A stretch of 64,000 nucleotides of DNA, taken from contig NC_003281.10 of assembly GCF_000002985.6 (NCBI RefSeq), positions 2,604,001 to 2,668,000 of the forward strand, read 5' to 3'. Source of the DNA: Caenorhabditis elegans (Eukaryota > Nematoda > Chromadorea > Rhabditida > Rhabditidae). The notes below the pieces were generated by a model. It had not been told where the DNA came from and made no database searches. It worked only from the letters and a program-made list of their open reading frames with translations. The position numbers and the translations under genes are program-made. Positions 1 to 15,324 of the stretch are shown here, piece by piece. Within the stretch, counting starts at the first letter, position 1. Every line of letters starts with the position of its first letter.

Positions 1-879
1 TTTCCCAAAAATCTCTGTAAAAACCACATAATCTACTAATAATCTACACGAAAAAAGGTACCGTTCGAAATTTAATCGAAATCCAATAATCCGAAAAAAT
101 CGATATAAATTGAATAGCGACGACATTTAATAATAGAATAGTTTTTTGCTCCATTTTTCCCTTTTTGAGCCCCAAAAAAAAACATAAAAAAGTTGAGCTT
201 CTCCCTTCTTCTCGCCACTAATTCAGTTTATTCAGAGATATGGGATCTCGAAAGTTTGCTGAGAATATTCCGGATATCTTCTCTCAAGAAGAAAAAGAAG
301 AAGCTCTAGGAGCTCGAGGAGCAGAAAATTCAAATTCCACGGAGCTTTTGAGTTGGATGAGAAACGATGAAATTGGACGGAATTCTGTGATGGATGGACC
401 ATTTGGAGCAAGAAAAGGTGCTGAAAATGCACGATTTGTGATACAGATTACAGAGAAAAACCGGGAATTTCTTTTAAAAAATCTGAAAAAAACTGATTTT
501 TTGAAGAAAAATTTCCAGACAATTTCAAAAGTTTTATTCTCAAAAAAAAAGTTGTTCAGAAAAATTTTTAAACATTTTTTGGAATTATTTCCAAACAGTT
601 TCTGAATTAAAAAAAAACGGAAATTTTCCAATTTTCTGGAAAAATACATACTTTTTTCGAGATTGCCAAAAAAAGTGGAAATTTCTCGGAAAAAAATAAA
701 CAGTTTTTTTTTCAAAAAAATTGGATTTTTCGGGAAAAAAAAATCCGACAAGTCTTGAAATGAAAAAAATTCAGAAGAAAAATGTAGAACTTATCTAGAA
801 GAAAAATTCGGTTTGAAAGTACAGTACCCTTTAAAGACGCATACTTTTTTGTATTTATCAAAAATTAGGCTTGGGCCTT

Positions 880-1229: not shown

Positions 1230-2467
1230 ATGAAAGTCTATGAGCATTCTAGAAAATTCAATACGGTGCTTCTGAAAATTCGCAATGATTGGTTGTTTCA
1301 ATTCGAAATAGATAATGAACGCTTTGAATTCGGGAGAAAAGGTGAAGGATGGCTGCCTTTGATACGTAAAAATACTGCTTTATTCGATGATGATGGATTC
1401 TACAAAATTTACAATTTTTTATTCTACATGTATAGCGAAAAACAAAAATCATTGGAAAACCTAACCGTCTCATTTTTCCACTTGAACTCTGCCGACTCAA
1501 ATGGACTGGGTGCTTCTGTCCTCGAAACTATTTTGTTTCAAATCGAGAGTTTTACGAAATTGTTCAAACTGACGAATGTGAAAATGGATGGCCTTACAGT
1601 GACAGATTGTATACGTCTGTTGAAAAAATTTGATCGAGATTTGTTGGAGAATATATTGATGAATTATTGTAAAAATCAAATGGAAGAAGATGAATTCAAA
1701 TCGTTGGCTGAGGTGGAGTGAGACCTTGTATTCTTCATTATTAATTTGTTTTTATCGTTGCAGGTTGTAAATGAATTTAATTGCTTGAATTCCATGGAAA
1801 TCGTAGGAATTGTTAGACCAGACAAGAATGCTGCGACATCTTCCACCTGGGACAAACATTTCGATAATTCGAAATATGAAGTTAAAACCACGGATTACTC
1901 GTGGAAACTGTTCAGAAATAGTGAGTAATTTATTTGACAATTGAAATTTTATTTAATCTCTGAAGCCATTCCACCCGTGTCATGTAATTTTTTTCTTAAA
2001 AAATATTCAGAAATTTTGAAATATTTTCAGAATTTTTGGATTTTTTTCTTCAAAAATTATCTGAACAATATTCAGAATTTTTTAATCCGAAATCTGAAAA
2101 ATTTCCAAAAATCTAGAAAAAAGTTTTTTCGTAGGAAAAAAAGAAAAAGTTGAAGATTTTTCCGATAGTAATTTTTTTTGTCAAAAATTTTCTGAAAAAA
2201 ATCCGGAAAAATTTTAATTTTTTTAGAACTTTCGAGATTATTTTAATCCGAAAATTTCCCAGAAATTTTTCTGAAAATCTGAAAAATTTCCTAAATATTT
2301 TTGTAGTAAAAAAATGAAAATTTTGATAAGAAATGTTTTTCAAAACTACAAAAAAAAAAAGTTTTTTTTTTTTAAGTCTAAAAAAAATTTTGAAATTTTT
2401 TTTCTAAAATTCAATATTTTCAGAATTCTCCAACTCAACTCACCAACACAAAGCTCATCTGTACTGA
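1230..2467 (+). CDS. FTH/DUF38-like protein without an F-box (possible pseudogene)
   Basis: The model has exons 1230-1712, 1764-1920 and 2424-2467, about 227 residues. The acceptor-like TTTCAG at 1190-1195 could be a trans-splice site or an exon boundary; the frame is open from 1197 and the first ATG is at 1230. The pattern of an ILFQIESFTKLFKL-like segment followed by a leucine-rich helix at about residues 120-150 resembles the FTH/DUF38 half of nematode F-box proteins, which vary rapidly within families. The N-terminal F-box usual in that family is absent, and none was found between 420 and 1190. The first donor (GAG/GTGGAG) is weak; the stronger GTGAG five bases on would bring a stop. It lies directly downstream of the duplicated 5' end of the neighbouring gene. 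Homology is moderate and intactness uncertain. Confidence 0.5.
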
Positions 2468-3545
2468 TCCACTTCGCTATTAATATCATCGATATCCTTC
2501 TGAAAATTAACCTATTTGAAATTAAATTATTTTTTCCCATTTTTTTTTGTTCTTTTTTCTCAATTAATATCAGTCACTATTACCTGATATATCATTACAT
2601 TGACGAAAAAGATTGGAGTGTTGAATCTGATTTGATAGGCGAAGTTGGCAGTTTGGAGGCGGTGTCTTGAAAATTTTAAAATAAAAAAAAAGCTTTAAAA
2701 AAAATTGAATTAAGCCAAAAAAAAATAAAATTTCGGAAAAATTTTCGGATTTAAAAAATTAAAGAAAAATTTGTTTCAGTATTTTTTAATAAAAAAAATC
2801 CAAAAGTTCTAGAAATATTTAAATCTTTTCAAACAAGAAAAATTCAAATTTTAATAGTATCCGAAAATTTATTTTTTGAATTTTTTCTGAAAAACTCCTG
2901 AATACTTTCAGAGAAAAATATAAATTTCCGGAAGTTTAAAAAGTTCTGAAAATATCAGAAAAATCTGAATTTTTTTAAATTTTGGGCTTTTTGAATTAAT
3001 TTTTTTGAAAATTTGGCGATTTAATATCAGAAAAATTCGAATTTTTTTTTGATTTTTCCTAAAATTTCTAATAAATTTTTTGGGATTTTCAAAAGAAAGC
3101 TGGAAGTTTCCAAAATTTTCAAATTATTTATTTCAAAATTTTCTGACAATTCTGAAAAAAATTTGTTGGAATTTTCGAAAAATCCGATTTTTTTTTGAAA
3201 ATTTCTGAAAAAATCAAAAAAAAATTCGCTTTATTTAATTTTAGAAAAAAAATTCAAAACGAACCCGAAAGTTCTCAGAATTTCCGAAAAAAAAATTTTG
3301 AAATTTTTTTTTGCGTTTTTTGAAACATTTTAGAAGAAATTAGGGAATTTTTTGGGTTTTATTTTTTAATTTTAGGCTTTTCCAAAAAAATAAAATTGGA
3401 ATTTTTTTTCGCCTTTTTCAAAAGAAAATCGGCTAATTTTTTTTTAAATTTACGAAAAATTCTGAAAAAATTTTAAATTTGTCAAAAAAAAAAGAAAAAA
3501 ATCAGGAAATTTTCAATTTCAATCCAAACTTTTTAAAATTTTTTT
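2468..3545. other. AT-rich stretch without a recognised gene
   Basis: This holds long A and T runs of intron-like composition (AAAATTTTC and TTTTTTGAAAA words). I see no exon flanked by convincing splice sites. Confidence 0.6.
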
Positions 3546-3781: not shown

Positions 3782-5060
3782 ATTTCCCAAAAATCTCTGT
3801 AAAAACCACATAATCTACTAATAATCTACACGAAAAAAGGTACCGTTCGAAATTTAATCGAAATCCAATAATCGGAAAAAATCGATATAAATTGAATAGC
3901 GACGACATTTAATAATAGAATAGTTTTTTGCTCCATTTTTCCCTTTTTGAGCCCCAAAAAAAAACATAAAAAAGTTGAGCTTCTCCTTCTTCTCACCACT
4001 AATTCAGTTTATTCAGATATGGGATCTCGAAAGTTTGCTGAGAATATTCCGGATATCTTCTCTCAAGAAGAAAAAGAAGAAGCTCTAGGAGCTCGAGGAG
4101 CAGAAAATTCAAATTCCACGGAGCTTTTAAGTTGGATGAGAAACGATGAAATTGGACGGAAGTCTGTTATGGATGGACCATTTGGAGCAAGAAAAGGTGC
4201 TGAAAATGCACGATTTGTGATAAATTACAAGAAAAAGCGGGAATTCTTCAAAAATTCTGAAAAAAATTGTTTTCCCATTTTTCGGAAAAAATACATATTT
4301 TTTTTGAGAGTGACGAAAAAATTGGAAATTTCTCGGAAAAGAATTCTAGACACTTTTATTCAAAAAATTCGTATTTTTCAGGAAAAAAAACCCGAAAATA
4401 GTAGACTTTTTTATTTAAAAAAAATAGAAAGTTGCAGAAAAAAACCCGAGAATTTTCTAAATTTTCACAAAAATCCAGTAATCGCTAGGAAAATTCTGGA
4501 AATTTCTGAAAGTTGAAAAAAAAATCAGAAAATTGATCAAAAATTTTTTTTGCAATTTTCTAAAAAATCCAGATTTAAAAAATGTACTTTCATCGAAAAA
4601 ATTGAATATTGAGAAAAATTCGGTTTTTTTCCAGATTTTCAGCACAAAAATATTGAAATCTTTTGAATTTTTAGGAAAAAACAGTAAAAAATTCCAAAAA
4701 ATTGGATTTTCGGGAGTACAGTACTCTTTAAAGGCGCATACTTTTTTGTATTTATCAAAAATTAGGCTTGGGCCTTAGGCTCAGGCTCAGGCTTAGGCTT
4801 AGCTTAGACTTGGGCTTAGAAAAATGAGAAATTCCCAAAAATTCTTAAAAATCCAGAAAAAAAAATGTCCATAAAATTTTTAGAAAAGTCTTGGAATTTT
4901 AAGGATGTCTTTGTCGGAAATTTTCAAAAAGTATCGAAATGTTTTTCCAAAAATTTCATAAAAATTGCTTAAGCTCAGGGAAAAAGAGAAATTCGTGGAA
5001 ATTCTTCGGAAATTAAAAAAAATGAAAAAAAAAATAATAAAAATTTCGGAAATTTCAGAA
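3782..5060 (+). repeat. Downstream copy of the tandem duplication
   Basis: This is the second copy of the segment described at 1-1135. It contains the expressed-looking first exon (4019-4196) and most of intron 1 of the fusion gene. It includes a shorter TTAGGC/TCAGGC run at 4764-4820 and ends shortly before exon 2 at 5090. Confidence 0.9.
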
Positions 5061-8000
5061 AGTTTTTCAAAAATTATTATATTTTCCAGTGACTTACTGT
5101 GACTATACAGCAAGTGCCCGTGCATTCACCTCCATCGAAACATACATTCAACACGAAGTCCTTCCATTCTACGGAAATACTCATAGCTCCGTTACAGTAA
5201 CCGCCGAGCAAACGACACTTTTCATGCACGAAGCGAGACAAGAAATCCGTGCATTCAGTGGATGTGGTGATCAGGATTCTGTAATATTTACTGGAAGTGG
5301 ATCAACTTGTGCTGTTGAGCTTCTTGTTCATTTAATGAGTGATGGGAAGGATGATGAAGAAGTTATAGTGGTACATTCCAGTCAAGAACATCATAGTAAT
5401 CTTCTGCCGTGGCGGAAAATTGCAAAAGAATGCAGAAATATTGAAGAGCTCGAGAATGGACAGATTGACTTGGTGCATTTGCAAAATGTGCTCAAAGGCA
5501 AGCATTTTGCTATGGAATTACTTACAGAAAATTACGAAAAATTTTAATGGCTGTATTTTTAGAAGAATAAAAAAGAAACACTCCAAAATTTTCAGAAAAA
5601 AAATTCTGGACTTCTCTGAAAATTTTCCTAATGGGGTTATTCAAGTAATGTAGCAAAATGTATTAAAATACATGTTTTTAAGTATTTTAACAGTTGTGAC
5701 GTAATTTTTCTACACTTTTTTAAATTTTCCGACACTACTTGAATAACCCCATAAAATTAAACAAAAAACTGGGAATTTTATTTTGAAAATTTCAGAAAAT
5801 TCGAAATTCTGAAAAAAACTTTATTTACCTTTTTAGAAAAAAATCTGTAATTTCTCAACAAAAAAACTAGGATTTTTAAAAAAATATTCTGGAAATTTTG
5901 TATTCTTTCAGAAAAAAAAATTAGTTTTCAGAAAAATTACAAAAAATTTCAAAATTCTCCAAAAAAAGCCAATTATTTTTCCAATTTTCGGGAAAAAAAT
6001 TTATCGCAAAAATTCTAAAAATATGTATTACTAAAAATTAAATATTTTAAAACAATATTCAACAAAAAAAAACCGAAAAATAAATAAATTTCCCAAAGTT
6101 TTCAATTTTTTCAGAAAAAAAAAAGTTATCTAAAATTTAAAAAACATTCGATTTTTTCCGATTCTCCAAAAAAACATAGTTTTTATTCTGAAAAAAAAAT
6201 TGAAAAATTCCTAAAAATCCTATGAAAAATTGAAATTTTTTTGGAAATAATCAAAGAATTGCAGATTTTTTTAATGAAAATACGTAAAATCGCTAATTTT
6301 TTATAACAATTCTCAAAAATTACTGATTTTTCTTTTCTTTTTTTTAAAGCTCACAAATTTTCTATTTTATTTGGCATTTTAATGAATTTTTTAAATTAAA
6401 AAATTCCAGAAAAACCCTGCGGTATTTCGAATTTTTTGATAATTCTTTTTTTTGATAAAAAATCTGAAATTTTCAAAAGAATTATTGGAAAAATACAAAA
6501 TATATCTGAATTTCAGAGAATCTGAATTGTAATTCCGAAAAAAAAAATTTTTGTTATAAAAAAAATCCGCGATTTTCCGAATTTTTCAAAGAAAAAAACC
6601 ACTTTTTTGAAAATCAAAAAACATTTTTCAAAAAATTCCTTTAAAAAATCTATCCATTTCCATATTTTTTAAAACAATTTTCCAGAAATCCGAGAATCCC
6701 ATGGATCTATCAAAATCATCGGAACATTCTGTGCAGCCTCCAACCTTACCGGAATCCTAATCGATATTCAAAATGTCACAAAAATTCTGAAAATGTTCGA
6801 TGCAATTGCGATTTGGGATTTTGCATCGGCGGCTCCATATATTCCAATTTTAGTTAATGGTACATACCCATTGGATGCAGTTTTCTTCTCGGGACACAAA
6901 TTTCCAGGCGGTGTCAGCTCTCCGGGTGTTCTGATTGTCAAAAAATCGATAATTCAGGCGACTAAGCCGAAGAGAATTGGTGGTGGAACGGTTTTCTTTG
7001 TACGTATTGAAAAATTGAATCAATTCGTAAATCGACACGACTATGTGTCGATTTACGCAGCTTGTGTACTCCACGAGGAGAAGGAAATCAAATTATTGAT
7101 TTTTCAGGAAAATCCCCAAAAAAATTGGGAATTTTTACAAAAAAAATCTCAAAAAACAAGAGAATTTACAGATTTTCTCGAGAATTCTTTGAAAAATTAC
7201 CCTATTTTTTGGAAAATACAAAAAATGTTTTAAAATTACTATTTTTTTGGAAATAATAAAAAAATCGTGGATTTTTTAGCAAAAATTTTAAAAAATCCCC
7301 AATTTTTTTATGGAAAAGTATTTGTAAATTGCAGTTGTTCGGAGAAAAATAATAAAAAATCACTGATTTTTCTTGAAAATATATTCCTAGAATTTTCTAA
7401 TAATTTTTATAAGAATTTTCAGAAAAATCCTCTTTTTTTTGGCATTTTAAAAAAATTTGGAAATCAAAATTTTCCAGAAACCCCCCAAAAAATTTTTCTC
7501 AATGTATGTAAGAATTTTTTGAAAAAAAACCACCAATTTCCGAATTTTTCAAAGAAAAAAGCCTCTTTTTTGAGAAAATTCTTTAAAGGGGGAGTAGAGT
7601 TTGTGATGAAATATATGTTTCTGACTCTAATTTTGCCCCTGATGCCGAATATCGATGTGAAAAAATTCAAAAAAATTTCCCTGATTTTATATTAATTTTT
7701 AAAATCCGAAAATTCATTGGATGCCTATATGTGAGTTTTCAAACGCTGAATTTTCCCGCCAGAGACGCCCCGCCCACGAAACCGTGCCGCAGGTGTGGGT
7801 TTACGGGATGAATATTTTCCTTCTATTTTTATTTGATTTTATACCGATTTTCGTCGATTTTTCTCATTTTTTCGCTGTTTTATATTGAAATTTTTGTTAT
7901 TTCTCTTAAATTATGCCTTTCTATTGATGAAATGCACAAAATTCCATGAAAAATTCCATTTTCAGCACAAATTCGACGGGAAACAAGGTGGAGTCAACCG

Positions 8001-11000
8001 TGGACAATAAATCTATTACTTATTCGTGTGTAATGCTTTTGTTTTTTAGACAAAACAAGTAAATTTATTATAAGACTGTTTATATTCAATAAACTTTACA
8101 AAAAAAACATTTTTGGGTAAAAAAACTACAAAAATCGAAGATTGTCCTCGGGAGCGCGACGAATCAACGTGTTCCGGATAACTGAAATGTTAAATGTTTG
8201 TATTAATGTGGAGAACTTTCGTTATTGAGATTTATAAAGAGACTATTGATAAGCACTAGGATTAAAATAGGAAGTTTAATTTAATTTATTACGATAGTAA
8301 GATATTTGCCGAATAAGTCGACATACTGATGATTTTTAGGATGTTTCAGGCTGAATTATTTAGCGATTCTTACTTTTCAATTGTTTTTTAAATAATATTT
8401 TCTATAAGAAGTGCTTTCTTTCCAAAAAATCGTCGTGTCTCCGCGATTTTCCTCGTTTTCCGTCGAATTTGTGCTGAAAATGGAATTTTTCATGGAATTT
8501 TGTGCATTTCATCAATAGAAAGGCATAATTTAAGAGAAATAACAAAAATTTCAATATAAAACAGCGAAAAAATGAGAAAAATCGACGAAAATCGGTATAA
8601 AATAAAATAAAAATAGAAGGAAAATATTCACCTCGTAAACCCACACCTGCGGCACGGTTTCGTGGGCGGGGCGTCTCTGGCGGGAAAATTCAGCGTTTGA
8701 AAACTCACATATAGGCATCCAATTAATTTTCGGATTTTAAAAATTAATATAAAATCAGGGAAATTTTTTTGAATTTTTTCACATCGATATTCGGCATCAG
8801 GGGCAAAATTAGAGTCAGAAACATATATTTCCCCACAAACTCTACTCCCCCTTTAAGAATTTGATTAATTTTTCCAATTTTTTTTTGACAAAAAACTGTA
8901 ATTTTTCGGAATTTTTTAAAAATCATTTTTTTTTGTGCATTTTTTTGAAAATTTTCCGGAAAAACCACAATTCTTTGAAAATTAGAAAAAAAAACAAGTT
9001 TTCTTTTTGAATTTAAAATAAAATCTGCAATTTTATTTCGAAAAATGTATTTTTTAATTTCTTTAAAGATAAAAAAAAACAATATTCCCAATTTTTTTTT
9101 ACATTAAAAAATTTTTAATGGAATTTTTTTTCACTTTTTACAAAAATTTCAAAAAATTCTCAATTTCAGGTGAATTCCACAGACGAATGGTATTTGAAAG
9201 AAGTTGAACATCGAGAAGAAGGTGGCACTGCTGATGCAGTTGGAGCTGTCCGATTGGCAATGGCTGTGAAAATGAAACGATCAATTGGAGAGGATACCAT
9301 TAAAAATCTCGAATCCTCAATTTCACATCTCGTCCTTCAGAAGATCAGAACCATTGAGAATCTTGTACTTCTCGGTCCATCGGTCGTAGATCATCGTCTC
9401 CCAGTATTCTCATTCCTAATTCGTGATCCTCAAAGTCAACTGTTCTTCCATCATAATTATATTTCTGTTCTGTTAAATGATCTTTTTGGAATTCAAACTC
9501 GTGCTGGATGTATGTGTGCTGGTCCGTATTCTCAGAAGCTTCTCGGAATCGATGAAGAGCTGTCACAGAGATTTGTGAGCGCAATTCAAGAATCACCAGA
9601 TCTCGATAGAACACACCTCCGGCGGCAAGCTGAATACTCGCAACAGGAATTCCTGAGACCTGGATTCACGAGAATCTCGTTTCCTTATTTTTTCAAGATG
9701 GCGGAAGTCGATGAGATTTTGGAGGCTATTCGATTTATTGCAAAACATGCGGCCGACTTTTTGCACTTGGTAGGAGCCTTGTGTCGATTTACGCAAATTG
9801 TGTACTCCACGAGGAGAAGTATTTTTTAAAGCCACGTGGTGCTAGGCTGTCCCATCACGGTTTGATCTACAAAAAATGCGGGAATTTTTTGTCCAAAAAA
9901 TGTGATGTCAGCCATGCGAACTCTGCGTCTCTTCTCCCGCATTTTTTGTAGATCTACGTAGATCAAGCCAAAATGAGATACTCTGGCACCACGTGAAACG
10001 AGAAAAATTACCGATTTTTTCCGAAAATTTTTTTTTTCAAAATTCAAAAAACAACCAATTTTTCCGGAAATTATTTTTAAAAAATACACTTTTTTTTTCA
10101 GAAAAATTCAAAAATTGAAGATTTTTCTGAAAATTCTCAAAAAAAAAAATTGAGACAGTAGAATTTCTGAATTTTCACTGAAATTTCTGGAATTCTCGGA
10201 AATTTGGTTGAATTTCTTCGAAAATGCTCAAATTTTCATGAAAATTAAACATTTCCGTTCATTTTTCCATTTATTCCAATAAATTCTATCAATTTTCAGA
10301 CAATTATAGAGAAGTTATAGTAAAATTTGTACAAAACCTTCAAAAATTCCGAAAATTTGGAGAATTTTAGAACAAAGCAATTTTTGGCGAATTTTCAAAA
10401 TTTTTTCGTACATAGAAAAAAATTTAAAATTCTCAATTTTTTGAGAATTTTCCCAAAAAAATCCGCAATTTTTTGGGAATTTTTGGAAAAATCGACAATT
10501 TCCATAAATTCAATTTTTCGAATTTTCTCAAAAAAAATTCTTTACATTTTTGAGAATGAAAATTTTGTGATAGTAGATCATAATCTCTCCAATTTCAGTA
10601 CCAAGTAAACTGTGAGACCGGTGAATGGCATCATCAAAATCAACGAGTATTTCATGGAAGACGATGGCTCGGACATGTTCAATTCACCCCAACCGGCCTG
10701 AAAACTAAGCCTTTGGCTGTTCCAGAAGTGCCTGATATGAAGAAATGCCTGGAAGCGGCAAAAGTGTTGGCTCAAGAGTCGTCGGATGCTCTGAATATCT
10801 CGAAAATTCCAGATGGAAGACTGGCGATTAATTCGGAATATCACGAACTTCGGTGGTTTGTTCTTCCGATTGAGGTGGCTGAAGCTCGAGCTGGACGGGC
10901 GGTTTCATTTCCGATGTGTGTGATTAAACCGAGAAAGTATACAGAAGAAGCTTCACATCAAGAAATTCCATCCGAGCAGCATCAAGAAGCTCCGCAAGAA

Positions 11001-14000
11001 GAGTGTGAAGTGATTTGTGACGATGTGATTTGTTATCTGAAATCAGATAAGCTGAAAGCTTCAGAAGACGTGGGCGATGCTGCTGAAGCTGAGGAGGTGA
11101 AGCAGATGGAAGACTGGAATAAGCGGGTCATCGTGAGACGTGTGGAGAATTTGAGTAAAGAAGACGAACGGCTTCAAGAATGGCATATTCCGTCGTTGGA
11201 AATGTACAAGAAAGTTACAGACATTATTCATCAGCTCAAGATGATTAGGGTTAGTCGAATTTGCCAAAAATAAAAATTTCCAATTTGCCGGAAAAGTGGC
11301 AATTTGCCGGAATTGAAAATATACGTCAAATCGTCCAACCGGCAACTTGCCGATTTTGCCGGAATTGGAATTTTTTAGCAAATCAGCAAGTTGCCGGAAT
11401 CAAAAATTTCCGACAATTTGGCCACCGGCAGTTTCCGGTAATTTACCGAATTTGTTTTTGCCGAAAGCAATTTTTATTGAAAATTTCCGGCAAATCGCCC
11501 AACCGGCAATTCGCCGAAGTTGCCGGAATTTAAAATTTCCGGCAAATTGTTCAACCTTTGTCAATTTTGCCGAAAGTTAAAATTTGCGGCAATTTGCCGA
11601 ATTTGTCAGAAAAGTGGCAATTACCGGAATGGAAAATTACCGGCAAATCGTCTAACCTGCAACTTGCCGATTTTGCCGGAAAAGCGGCCATGCCAAAAAT
11701 AAAAATTTCCGGCAAATTGGCAACTTGCCAGAGTTGAAAATTTCAAGCTAACCGTTCTACTGGCAATCTGCCGAATTTGCCGGAATTGAAAATTTCCGGC
11801 AAATCGGGTAACCTGCAATTTGCCGATTTTGCCGGAAAAGCGAAAATTGAAAAATTGCCGGCAAATGGGAATTTCGCCGGAATTTAAAATTTCCGGCAAT
11901 TTACCGAATTTGCCGGAAAAGCGGCAAATTGCCGAAAGTAAAAATTGCCGGCAAATCGGCAACTTGCCAGAGTTGAAAATTTCAAGCTAATCGTTCAACT
12001 GACAATTTGCCGATTTTGCCGGAATTGAAATTTTCCGGCAAATCGGCAAATTGTCGGAGTTGAATATTTCCGGCGAATCGTCCAACCTGCAATTTGACGA
12101 ATTTGCCGGAATTGAAAATTTTCGGCAATTTTCCGAATTTGCCATGAAAGCGGCAGTTGTCGAATGTTATAATTTCCGGCAGATCGCCGAATTTGCTGGA
12201 ATTGAATATTTCCGGAAAATCGTCTAACCGGCAATTTGCCCAATTTGCCGGAAAAGTGGCATTTGCCGAAAGTGAAGGTAAATCGGCTAATTGCCGGAAT
12301 TGGAAATTTTTAGCAAATAGGCAAATTCCCAGAATTGAAATTTTCCGGCAAATCGGCCAACTGGCAATTTGCCGAATTTGCCGAACTAAAGTTTCGAATA
12401 ATTTCCAGGACGGCGACAAAGTTCTTGTGTGTCTCTCCGGCGGCAAGGATTCTCTATCGCTTCTTCACATTTTACGGCACTATCAACAACGCTGTAATAA
12501 GGCTAGAAGGTATGAAATATCTGGGTCTCGCCACGACTTGTGTCGATTTACGAGCAGCGCAGAAATTTTTTTTTTTGAATGAAATCGATGTCAAAACGCG
12601 CTCCACGGACAATTGACAACGCTCCGCCCCCAACAGCTGGGTCTCGTTAGGTATTTGGCGGCAATAGTGTATATTCAAATTTTTTCAAGAATTTTTGCCT
12701 TTTTCGTTATGATTTTTACATGAAATTATCAATTTCGGCTCAAAAATCTTCAAAAACAATGTAGAACCTAACGAGACCCTTGGCTCGGGGGCGGAGCCTT
12801 ATTTCAGCGCACCCGTAAATCGACACGAGTTACTGTAGCTCGTGGCGAGACCCATGTGCTCAGAATATGGCGAAAATTGTCATTTTTCGTCGGAAATTTT
12901 TGAAAAAAAATTCATATTTCCAGCACCTCCTTCGAACTCGGTGCAATCACCGTTGATCCAGGATCTGCAGAATACAATCCACGCCCATTAATCGAGTATT
13001 GTCGACGGCTCAATATTGATTATTTCTACGAAGAGCAGGATATTATTGGAGCCGCCCGAAAAACGCCCGGACTCCGATCGATTTGCGCGTTTTGTAGTCG
13101 AATGAAGCGTGGCCGACTCGCCGCCGCCGCACAATTACACGGATGGAATGTTCTGGCGATGGGACAACATTTGGATGATCTTGCTGAAAGCTTCTTCATT
13201 GCCGCTTTTCAGAATGGAAATTTGAGCACGATGAAGGCTCAGTATACGACGAAGTTAGTACTGAAAATTAGAAAAATCGATTTTTGTTCGAGTTTTTTGA
13301 GACGAAAATCCTGAAATTAATCTAAATTTCGTTGTTTTTCAGGTAGAAACACCAAAAATCAGTCGATGTTTAAGATTTTCCTTTCAAAAATTCACCGAAA
13401 ATGAAAAAAGATTGATTTGCCACCAAATACCTAACGAGACCCGACTCTTGGGGGCGGATTTTTATGGAAAATTTACGATAAAATCGAAATATTTTCCAAA
13501 TGTTTTGAACTCAAAATCCTGAGAATGCGTATTGCACAACACATTTGACGCGCAAAATATCTCGCAGCGAAAACTACAGTAATGACTACTGTAGGTGTCG
13601 ATTTACGGGGCTTGGCGGCAGCTCGTAAATCCACACTTACAGTAGTGATTACTGTAGTTTTCGCTGCGAGATATTTTACGCGTCAAATGTGTTGTGCAGA
13701 ATATCTCGCAGCGAAAACTACAGTAATGACTACCGTGTTCAAAAAAACAAAAAATTGGGAAAATAACTTGATCTTTCCTGGAAAACACTGAAAAATCGTA
13801 TATTTTCCAGAAAAATACGCTCCGCCCCCAACAGGCGGGTCTCGTTAGGTATTTGTAGACAAAACTTTAAATTCAAATGTTTTTGTCACGTTTTTCATTA
13901 GTTTAATAAATTTTTATGCCGAAATTTATAAAATAACATAAGTTCGACGAAAAAATCAATAAAATCGATGGAAAATTGAAAATTTTCCTAACGAGACCCA

Positions 14001-14719
14001 ACTGTTGGGGGCGGAGCGTTACCAATTGTCCGTGGAGCGCGTTTTCACGTCGATTTCAAAAGGAATTTCAATTTTTTTCCAGAGACGGAGCTCTTCGAGT
14101 CATTCGACCGCTGGTGATGGTTCGCGAGAAGGCTCTACGAAATTTCGCCGAGGATAAAAGTATTTTCAGCGATTTTTTTTTTGAATTTATCTCCAAATAA
14201 ATAATTTTCCAGAACTCCCAGTTGTCGCGGAAAACTGCCCGGCATGCTTCAACCAGGCCACCGAACGTCACCGTGTCAAGCAGCTCCTGGCTCAGCAGGA
14301 GCTCATCTTCCCCGACTTGTTTAATTCACTGAGATCTGCTCTGAAACCACTGCTTTTGGTGGGTGATTTATGGGTTTTCAAGCTCTAGTAACGCGGGATG
14401 TCCCTTGAAATGGCAGAGTTTTGGGAAGCTCGGCCGCGACGCAGCAGCGCGCGGAGCGGCTCAGGCAAAAACGTTGATTCTGTTTTTTTTTCTACCAGAA
14501 AATGATAAAATCAATGTGTTCGTCTGAGCCGCTCCGCATGCAGCTGCGTCGCGGCCGAGCTTCCCAAGCTGAAAACTCTTCCATTTAAATATAAGAGGGA
14601 CTCTGAGCCCCCTTGAGCTCTTTTTTTCAAATCTAATAAATGTTTTCCAGGTTGATTCGGCGCACACCAGCGTGATGCGGAGCCAGGCGGTGCATAATAT
14701 TGTGAAGGAAATGTCATAG
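4019..14719 (+). CDS. Class-V PLP (cysteine desulfurase-like) enzyme fused to a TtcA-type PP-loop tRNA thiolase
   Basis: The exons are 4019-4196, 5090-5497, 6686-6999, 9170-9769, 10599-11249, 12409-12509, 12924-13253, 14083-14159, 14213-14358 and 14651-14719. All phases agree, giving about 957 residues. Residues 60-500 form an aminotransferase class-V fold. It has a TYCDYTASAR opening, EHHSN at about 159-163, Asp240 in IWDFASAAPY (expected to bind the PLP ring nitrogen), Lys267 in SGHKFPGG (Schiff base), and Cys414/Cys416 in RAGCMCAGPY, where desulfurases carry the persulfide cysteine. Residues about 501-717 form a linker with an acidic stretch. Residues 718-957 are TtcA-like, with SGGKDS (727-732), CAFCSRMKRG (Cys805, Cys808), GQHLDD, and a C-terminal ENCPAC (Cys895, Cys898). 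In bacterial TtcA three cysteines hold a 4Fe-4S cluster and a separate desulfurase supplies sulfur for 2-thiocytidine in tRNA. A thiolase with a built-in donor is inferred. The substrate is unproven, and the desulfurase half could have another role. Confidence 0.88.
5498..6685 (+). other. Intron 2 of the fusion gene, with a GC-AG boundary
   Basis: Exon 2 ends AAAG and is followed by GCAAGC. Only this GC donor joins exon 3 (after TTTTCCAG at 6678-6685) in frame, giving VLK-EIRESHGS, a continuous class-V aminotransferase sequence. The nearby GTGCTC would break the frame. The intron is AT-rich and carries a small TIR element. Confidence 0.75.
5633..5753. mobile_element. Short TIR element in intron 2
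   Basis: The left end ATGGGGTTATTCAAGTA is mirrored by TACTTGAATAACCCCAT at the right end, about 118 bp in all. There is an inner palindromic stretch around TTAAAATACATG. It has no coding capacity, so it is a MITE. Confidence 0.75.
7010..7085. repeat. Dispersed repeat with a small palindrome (CGTAAATCGACAC)
   Basis: A hairpin of CGTAAATCGACAC and GTGTCGATTTACG is followed by GCTTGTGTACTCCACGAGGA. The same words recur at 9782-9823, 18389-18428, 18978-19014 and 25915-25958, so this belongs to a dispersed family. Confidence 0.65.
7586..8866. mobile_element. Foldback (long inverted repeat) element in intron 3 of the fusion gene
   Basis: The left arm, about 7586-7983, starts AAAGGGGGAGTAGAGTTTG. 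It is repeated in reverse complement at about 8445-8866. Both arms include CATATAGGCATCCAAT-type and CCCGCCAGAGACGCCCCGCC sequence. A unique loop of about 450 bp (7984-8444) contains no credible ORF. Arms of about 400 bp could form a long hairpin in the pre-mRNA. Confidence 0.85.
9834..9998. mobile_element. TIR element with ends CACGTGGTGC (copy 1)
   Basis: The ends CACGTGGTGCTAG and CTGGCACCACGTG enclose imperfect inverted arms (TTGATCTACAAAAAATGCGG and the inverted CCCGCATTTTTTGTAGATC). It lies in intron 4 of the fusion gene. A related copy in opposite orientation is at 56168-56356. Confidence 0.75.
11250..12408. repeat. CCGGCAAATTGCCG-type satellite filling intron 5 of the fusion gene
   Basis: Nearly the whole intron is made of irregular units such as TTGCCGGAATTGAAAATTTC and CCGGCAAATCGGCAA. 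Accidental open frames here (LPICRKF-like peptides on either strand) are products of the repeat and not genes. The same family recurs at 23.94-24.54, 46.6-47.3, 48.0-48.1, 48.4-48.9, 57.3-58.5 and 59.97-60.9 kb. Confidence 0.9.
12522..12856. mobile_element. TIR element in intron 6 (ends GGGTCTCGCCACGA)
   Basis: The left end GGGTCTCGCCACGACTTGTG, running on into TCGATTTACG, is mirrored on the right by CGTAAATCGACACGAG, a short spacer and TCGTGGCGAGACCC. The interior carries inverted GGGTCTCGTTAGGTATTTGG/CCTAACGAGACCC and GGGGGCGGAGC words that return in the next intron. Confidence 0.75.
13425..14060. mobile_element. Composite of nested inverted repeats in intron 7
   Basis: It is bounded by ACCTAACGAGACCC and GGGGGCGGA words in both orientations (13428-13456, 13803-13853, 13985-14035). 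The middle is a palindrome of TCTCGCAGCGAAAACTACAG (13559-13734) with CGATTTACGGGGCTTGG inside. The right end repeats the AACGCGCTCCACGGACAATT block of 12595-12615 in reverse. This suggests one element inserted into another. Confidence 0.6.
14395..14608. mobile_element. TIR element in the last intron of the fusion gene
   Basis: The inverted arms include GGGAAGCTCGGCCGCGACGC and its complement GCGTCGCGGCCGAGCTTCCC, with outer GGGATGTCCCTTGAAATGG matched imperfectly at the other end. It is GC-rich compared with its surroundings, and the accidental minus-strand frames across it are not coding. Confidence 0.75.
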
Positions 14720-14989: not shown

Positions 14990-15324
14990 ATGCGGATCGC
15001 CTTGATTTTCCTCGTTCTCCTCGTTTCCTTCGCCTCGTCATGCAAGAATTTCGATAAATATATGAATATGTTCTGCCGTTACGGCTTGGAGCAATCCCCA
15101 TGCACTGTTGAGGATTGTAAGTTTTTTTATTTATTGATTTTTTGTGTTTTGTTTCAAAAGATTCATAATTAATTTCAGATAGCACCTACAAATCCGCGTG
15201 CTGTGCCATGAAGAACAACTGCTCGTACAAGGAATTCCCGAAGGATGATGTCTGCTGCTTCACTGTTGAGTGCCTCAAGAGATGCTTCCCGGAGAAGCTG
15301 CTCAAGAACGATAAAGTCTATTAA
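14990..15324 (+). CDS. Small secreted cysteine-rich protein
   Basis: There are two exons, 14990-15116 and 15179-15324, giving 90 residues. Residues 1-17 (MRIALIFLVLLVSFASS) form a clear signal peptide. The mature part has about ten cysteines, including the adjacent pairs ACCAM and VCCF, spaced as in small disulfide-rich secreted proteins. I do not recognise a named family. AATAAA follows at 15358. The gene lies about 270 bp after the stop of the fusion gene and about 610 bp before ppfr-4, all in one orientation. A short secreted peptide between two cytosolic housekeeping genes is an unexpected neighbour, so operon membership is only possible. Confidence 0.85.

Follow-up and report, generated by a model that had tools for sequence, protein, structure and literature searches.

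A conserved animal protein joining a SufS-like desulfurase half to a TtcA-like PP-loop thiolase half

Does a nuclear gene of Caenorhabditis elegans encode, in one polypeptide, both an enzyme that extracts sulfur and an enzyme that inserts it into tRNA? The gene occupies positions 4019 to 14719 of a 64,000-nucleotide stretch of chromosome III (RefSeq assembly GCF_000002985.6, contig NC_003281.10, positions 2,604,001 to 2,668,000), referred to here as the window. The initial annotation, made from the letters of this DNA, described a cysteine desulfurase-like half fused to a TtcA-type thiolase half in a nematode. The predicted splicing of 10 exons on the forward strand yields an uninterrupted frame of 957 residues, in which a SufS-like pyridoxal phosphate (PLP)-dependent desulfurase half is followed by a middle part, a linker, and a TtcA-like PP-loop thiolase half. 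The Pfam domains Aminotran_5 (residues 62 to 423, E value of 3.9e-50) and ATP_bind_3 (residues 721 to 891, E value of 3.1e-15) both score above their cut-offs, and 121 homologs contain both halves, in agreement with the proposed architecture. This fused form of two known enzyme families is real, conserved, and widely kept by animals; its function is a matter of strong inference, not of demonstration.

All the active-site residues named in the initial annotation are found where it had placed them. The N-terminal half carries EHHSN at position 159, Asp240, Lys267 within SGHKFPGG, and Cys414 and Cys416 within RAGCMCAGPY. The C-terminal half carries SGGKDS at positions 727 to 732, CAFC at position 805, and CPAC at position 895, the latter two being the sole CXXC or CXXH motifs of the whole worm protein. 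A total of 357 homologs were fetched and divided by a blastp rule into those aligning to both halves (121), to the C-terminal half only (120), and to the N-terminal half only (116). Donor and acceptor residues are conserved jointly across the fusions. Cys414 and Cys416 are each present in all 121; Lys267 (one gap), an intact SGGKDS motif, and Cys805 and Cys808 (one gap) are found in 120; Cys898 is kept in 116 (5 gaps) and Cys895 in 113 (8 gaps). The fold of the N-terminal half is that of a SufS-like cysteine desulfurase, and Cys416 aligns with the loop cysteine of two SufS-like sequences, L114 (RVGHHCARP) and L115 (RTGDHCAQP). In contrast to these two, the fusion has a CXC loop (RXGCXCAGPY); it also differs from SufS in its C-terminal extension and in having a likely sulfur acceptor within the same polypeptide. 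CAFC and CPAC align with both CXXC pairs in 10 of 10 canonical TtcA sequences, and the fusion, like canonical TtcA, has the SGGKDS PP-loop and no additional CXXC(H) motif.

TtcA is described as the enzyme that makes 2-thiocytidine at position 32 of tRNA (s2C32), carrying a [4Fe-4S] cluster on three cysteines of its two CXXC motifs and depending on IscS (PMC5372739). By analogy, the fusion is predicted to be a bifunctional, self-supplied tRNA thiolase making s2C, most likely at C32, a reading to which we assign a probability of roughly 60%. The SufS-like half, with PLP on Lys267, would take sulfur from L-cysteine and hold it as a persulfide on Cys416, perhaps with a relay by the nearby invariant Cys414. 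The sulfur would then be handed, within the same chain or a dimer, to the TtcA-type half, reaching either its cluster or the activated cytidine. Cys805, Cys808, and Cys895 would bind the iron-sulfur cluster, and the SGGKDS loop with ATP would activate C2 of the cytidine to give 2-thiocytidine; the target would most likely be C32 in a subset of cytosolic tRNAs. A pattern search for the worm tRNA-Ser(GCU), relevant to position 32, returned 7 matches, compared to 10 in a reversed control. Canonical TtcA is a separate protein that is reported to receive sulfur from IscS via IscU (PMC7694415), whereas the fusion has its likely donor on board and belongs to animals.

The C-terminal half is assigned not to canonical TtcA but to a separate subfamily of short TtcA-like proteins. 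It shows 51 to 55% identity to five bacteria-named short TtcA-like proteins of about 245 residues (among the matches listed), 32 to 36% identity to ten canonical TtcA proteins, and 23% identity to the second PP-loop locus of C. elegans (on contig 4), which we take, from its map position, to be CTU1/tuc-1. Its best NCBIfam match is the TtcA equivalog NF007972. On this profile, eight short TtcA-like homologs score 208.5 to 236, below the cut-off of 272, and ten canonical TtcA proteins score 332 to 501, above it. A tree of 73 rows (27 of the 121 fusions plus the worm protein, 25 of the 120 sequences with the C-terminal half only, and 20 genome sequences) unites the 28 fusion rows and the short form in one clade (97/98) beside canonical TtcA; group II and TilS fall outside these groups. 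The TtcA-type C-terminal half proposed at the outset is supported, with the family narrowed to the short form. The bacterial members of this clade (rows named Thiotrichales, Cocleimonas, Thiothrix, and Gammaproteobacteria) have the same motifs as the animal domain but are standalone proteins.

The genomic distribution of the short form bears on its function. A short-form protein was used to search 274 gammaproteobacterial genomes: the short form is found in 91 (E value of 2.9e-69 or better), the best match is at the level of canonical TtcA in 125 (E values from 1.4e-24 to 8.4e-53), only a weak match is seen in 7, and no match in 51. At most 4 of the 91 short-form genomes have a second related match; under independence, about 41 genomes with both would be expected. 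Because the short and canonical forms rarely co-occur, the short form looks like a functional replacement of TtcA.

Several observations weigh against a self-supplied s2C synthase. Both halves fall below the relevant curated cut-offs: the C-terminal half scores 180.6 bits on NF007972, and the N-terminal half scores 152.5 bits on the SufS family TIGR01979, with a cut-off of 475.1. The mutual exclusion in gammaproteobacteria may partly reflect lineage structure. Relatives of the N-terminal half are found in 9 of the 274 genomes, none of which has the short TtcA and 7 of which have a canonical-level TtcA match; likewise, no TtcA-like gene is found at any of the 80 best bacterial N-half loci (from 592 matches; the flank is shorter than 10 kb in many). 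A high-performance liquid chromatography analysis of C. elegans tRNA reports 5-methoxycarbonylmethyl-2-thiouridine (mcm5s2U), and no s2C nucleoside is mentioned in the portion of that paper available (PMC2702823). Finally, approximately unbiased (AU) tests in which the C-terminal half was held with two long-branched group II sequences gave p values of 0.142 and 0.208, rejecting neither arrangement.

The last point concerns CTU1/NCS6, a group II family, and the initial annotation had singled out a position of the C-terminal half inside CTU1 as decisive against it. The PP-loop, the first CXXC, and the third cysteine of group II proteins align with those of the fusion, and the fold class is shared. 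However, group II proteins are described as having five CXXC(H) motifs (PMC3980101), a number also seen in the group II control L109, whereas the worm fusion has two. Since the AU tests are indecisive and the group II branches are very long, the question rests mainly on the motifs, profile scores, and identity, which weigh against CTU1 membership, as does the topology of the tree.

Among the alternatives, the fusion might be a desulfurase joined to a PP-loop sulfurtransferase that thiolates some other base or RNA, such as 2-thiouridine at position 33 (s2U33) or a site outside tRNA. The low identity of the animal domain to canonical TtcA leaves room for this, as substrate choice is unreadable from sequence, and s2U33 is reported in trypanosomatid tRNA-Trp (PMC5372739). 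Yet the two CXXC pairs occupy the same places as in TtcA, and the fact that short and canonical forms exclude each other in gammaproteobacteria suggests that, in bacteria, both do the same work, so that a different target appears unlikely. Less plausible still is a class V PLP enzyme with a role of its own, such as cysteine or selenocysteine lyase activity or sulfide release, joined to the C-terminal half for the sake of co-expression or scaffolding. The bacterial N-half relatives, found neither beside TtcA genes nor together with the short form, would fit such a role, as would the standalone N-half paralogs of several animals (about 640 to 790 residues); the near-invariance of the PLP lysine and both loop cysteines in the fusions and the location of Cys416 at the SufS catalytic position make it quite improbable.

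The fusion could also be an artifact of gene models, with exons 1 to 5 and 6 to 10 belonging to distinct transcripts. Split models do exist in Caenorhabditis nigoni (P0241 and P0151) and Heligmosomoides (P0270 and P0208), the two parts lying in each case on one contig, of 12,836 and 100,722 bases, respectively. Exon 5 shares its reading frame with both halves, and fusions are annotated in at least 11 phyla, including two rows from transcript assemblies of other animals (P0049 and P0074), which leaves the two-gene explanation very little probability. A bifunctional s2C-forming thiolase remains the preferred reading.

How widely the protein is spread was assessed in a protein search that scored the 7981 candidates sharing most words with the query and listed the best 120 of 1714, 120 of 4036, and 120 of 3310 matches; the 1714 are the full-length matches with an E value of 0.001 or better, and the statements in this paragraph refer to the best 120 of them. 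By row names, fusions are found in at least 11 animal phyla, from sponges to tunicates: nematodes, arthropods, a tardigrade, molluscs, annelids, a nemertean, echinoderms, hemichordates, chordates (amphioxus and tunicates), cnidarians, and sponges. The fusion is thus present in the worm, as first described, but a nematode-only oddity is ruled out by this spread. Eight rows are named Caenorhabditis, with 64 to 79% identity over 77 to 100% of the protein; given these matches and the 121 of 357 homologs that align to both halves, the fusion is far beyond chance. Some rows are already named tRNA-cytidine(32) 2-sulfurtransferase. No vertebrate, fly, beetle, moth, or wasp name appears among these matches, a suggestion that the protein is absent from vertebrates and those insect groups. 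That at least 11 animal phyla, including C. elegans, make s2C in cytosolic tRNA with one sulfur-extracting and -inserting polypeptide that vertebrates have lost is a proposal for and against which we see equal weight. The assumption that CTU1 alone thiolates cytosolic tRNA in animals may be incomplete for these phyla.

Laboratory worms feed on Escherichia coli, which makes s2C, so that an s2C signal from an animal would be easily dismissed. A 2020 review assigns s2C, in the portion available, to archaea and bacteria only (PMC7694415). In another study, s2C is named among the indicators of bacterial contamination in eukaryotic samples and, in the available text, was not quantifiable in its eukaryotic samples, worms included (PMC6356711). 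If the fusion does make s2C, many animals break the rule that treats this nucleoside as a bacterial contaminant, and a standard model organism has a tRNA modification pathway that has gone unnoticed. The fusion would also allow the open question of how TtcA receives its sulfur to be addressed in a single chain. A PDB sequence search with a short TtcA (9 sequences) returned NcsA, TtuA, and TilS and no TtcA structure. A transcript annotated as TtcA is mentioned in passing in a krill paper (PMC3714250). A literature search whose coverage left out most subscription journals and bioRxiv found no paper dedicated to an animal TtcA or to the fusion among the results listed, and none on Y71H2B.5. The latter is our guess at the name of the worm gene, from clone order. 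As far as seen, the family is visible in databases and apparently unstudied.

The origin of the N-terminal half was traced in a tree of 18 fusions plus the worm protein, 23 of the 116 sequences with the N-terminal half only, 29 bacterial rows, and 2 SufS-like rows. Eukaryotic N-terminal halves group in a single clade (99/98), close to a family of standalone bacterial proteins that is spread over many phyla. Nine standalone animal paralogs without the PP-loop domain (P0263, P0266, P0275, P0281, P0289, P0291, P0297, P0304, and P0314), some of them annotated as "probable cysteine desulfurase," form a clade (96/93) that adjoins one (91/93) containing all 19 fusion rows and 7 more standalone rows. 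No such paralog is found in C. elegans among five Aminotran_5 loci outside the window (L089, L091, L092, L095, and L096); L096, on the X chromosome, which we presume to be MOCOS, has a weak match (E value of 5.9e-5), and the other four have none.

The RXGCXCAG loop is present in 77 of the 80 bacterial relatives. Since no TtcA-like gene is found at any of their loci, the two halves were probably joined in eukaryotes. These loci and the nine gammaproteobacterial genomes lend no support to the transfer of an operon or fusion already formed in bacteria. The fusion may predate animals, judging from one gene model, P0336, in which the N-terminal half and linker are followed by the beginning of the PP-loop domain, and whose N-terminal half groups with oomycete and chytrid sequences (100/94). 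The bacterial loci (L002 to L081) represent a widespread SufS-like family of about 570 residues with the loop RGGCSCAGPYG. At L004, the gene adjoins a divergent Lrp/AsnC-type frame, which we assume to resemble the cysteine-responsive DecR. Inspection by eye, with no profile scan, of the neighbors of nine bacterial loci revealed nothing recurrent, and many of the frames look spurious.

The exons of the worm gene and a near-copy of its first exon are listed in Table 1. Eight of the nine introns are of the GT-AG type and intron 2 is GC-AG, with an apparent GC donor at window position 5498. The middle region (residues ~500 to 600) is partly conserved, and the linker (residues ~610 to 680) has low confidence in a structure model of the Caenorhabditis remanei protein. 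Window positions 1 to 499 and 3783 to 4273 form a tandem duplication with 96% identity over 499 aligned bases, and with two near-identical first exons, the gene may start at two alternative sites.

Table 1. Exons of the fusion gene and the duplicate of its first exon (window coordinates)
Feature	Position	Strand	Residues	Remarks
Exon 1, tandem duplicate and upstream flank	240..417	+		58 of 59 residues identical; possible alternative first exon
Exon 1	4019..4196	+	1-59	Start codon at 4019
Exon 2	5090..5497	+	60-195	Desulfurase half; followed by the GC-AG intron
Exon 3	6686..6999	+	196-300	Desulfurase half; PLP lysine K267
Exon 4	9170..9769	+	301-500	Desulfurase half; C414 and C416, the latter at the position of the SufS catalytic cysteine
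Exon 5	10599..11249	+	501-717	Middle region, linker; PP-loop half begins
Exon 6	12409..12509	+	718-750	PP-loop SGGKDS
Exon 7	12924..13253	+	751-860	First CXXC (C805/C808)
Exon 8	14083..14159	+	861-886	
Exon 9	14213..14358	+	887-935	Second CXXC (C895/C898)
Exon 10	14651..14719	+	936-957	C terminus; stop codon

The duplicated unit seems to take in the 3' end of the upstream gene: positions 8227 to 9030 of locus L155 resemble window positions 1991 to 2706 (66 to 74%). L155 also carries, at 3794 to 8782, directly upstream and in the same orientation, a sequence related to the Med19 portion of the Caenorhabditis briggsae model P0004. In P0004 and in the Haemonchus model P0015, Med19 (Pfam ID PF10278) is joined to the fusion protein, and from these joined models the gene order appears to be old and may reflect an operon. 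Intron 3 contains a long inverted repeat (window positions 7587 to 8852) with arms at ~7587 to 7950 and ~8490 to 8852 that encode nearly identical peptides from opposite strands, probably a DNA transposon or foldback element. Intron 5 (window positions 11250 to 12400), just 5' of the PP-loop exon, is by eye packed with degenerate gccggaaaatttgccg-like repeat units. Downstream of the gene and in the same orientation, positions ~14992 to 15324 encode a small, apparently secreted protein rich in cysteine, followed from ~15939 by a gene that we take, by resemblance, to be the TAP42/IGBP1-like ppfr-4.
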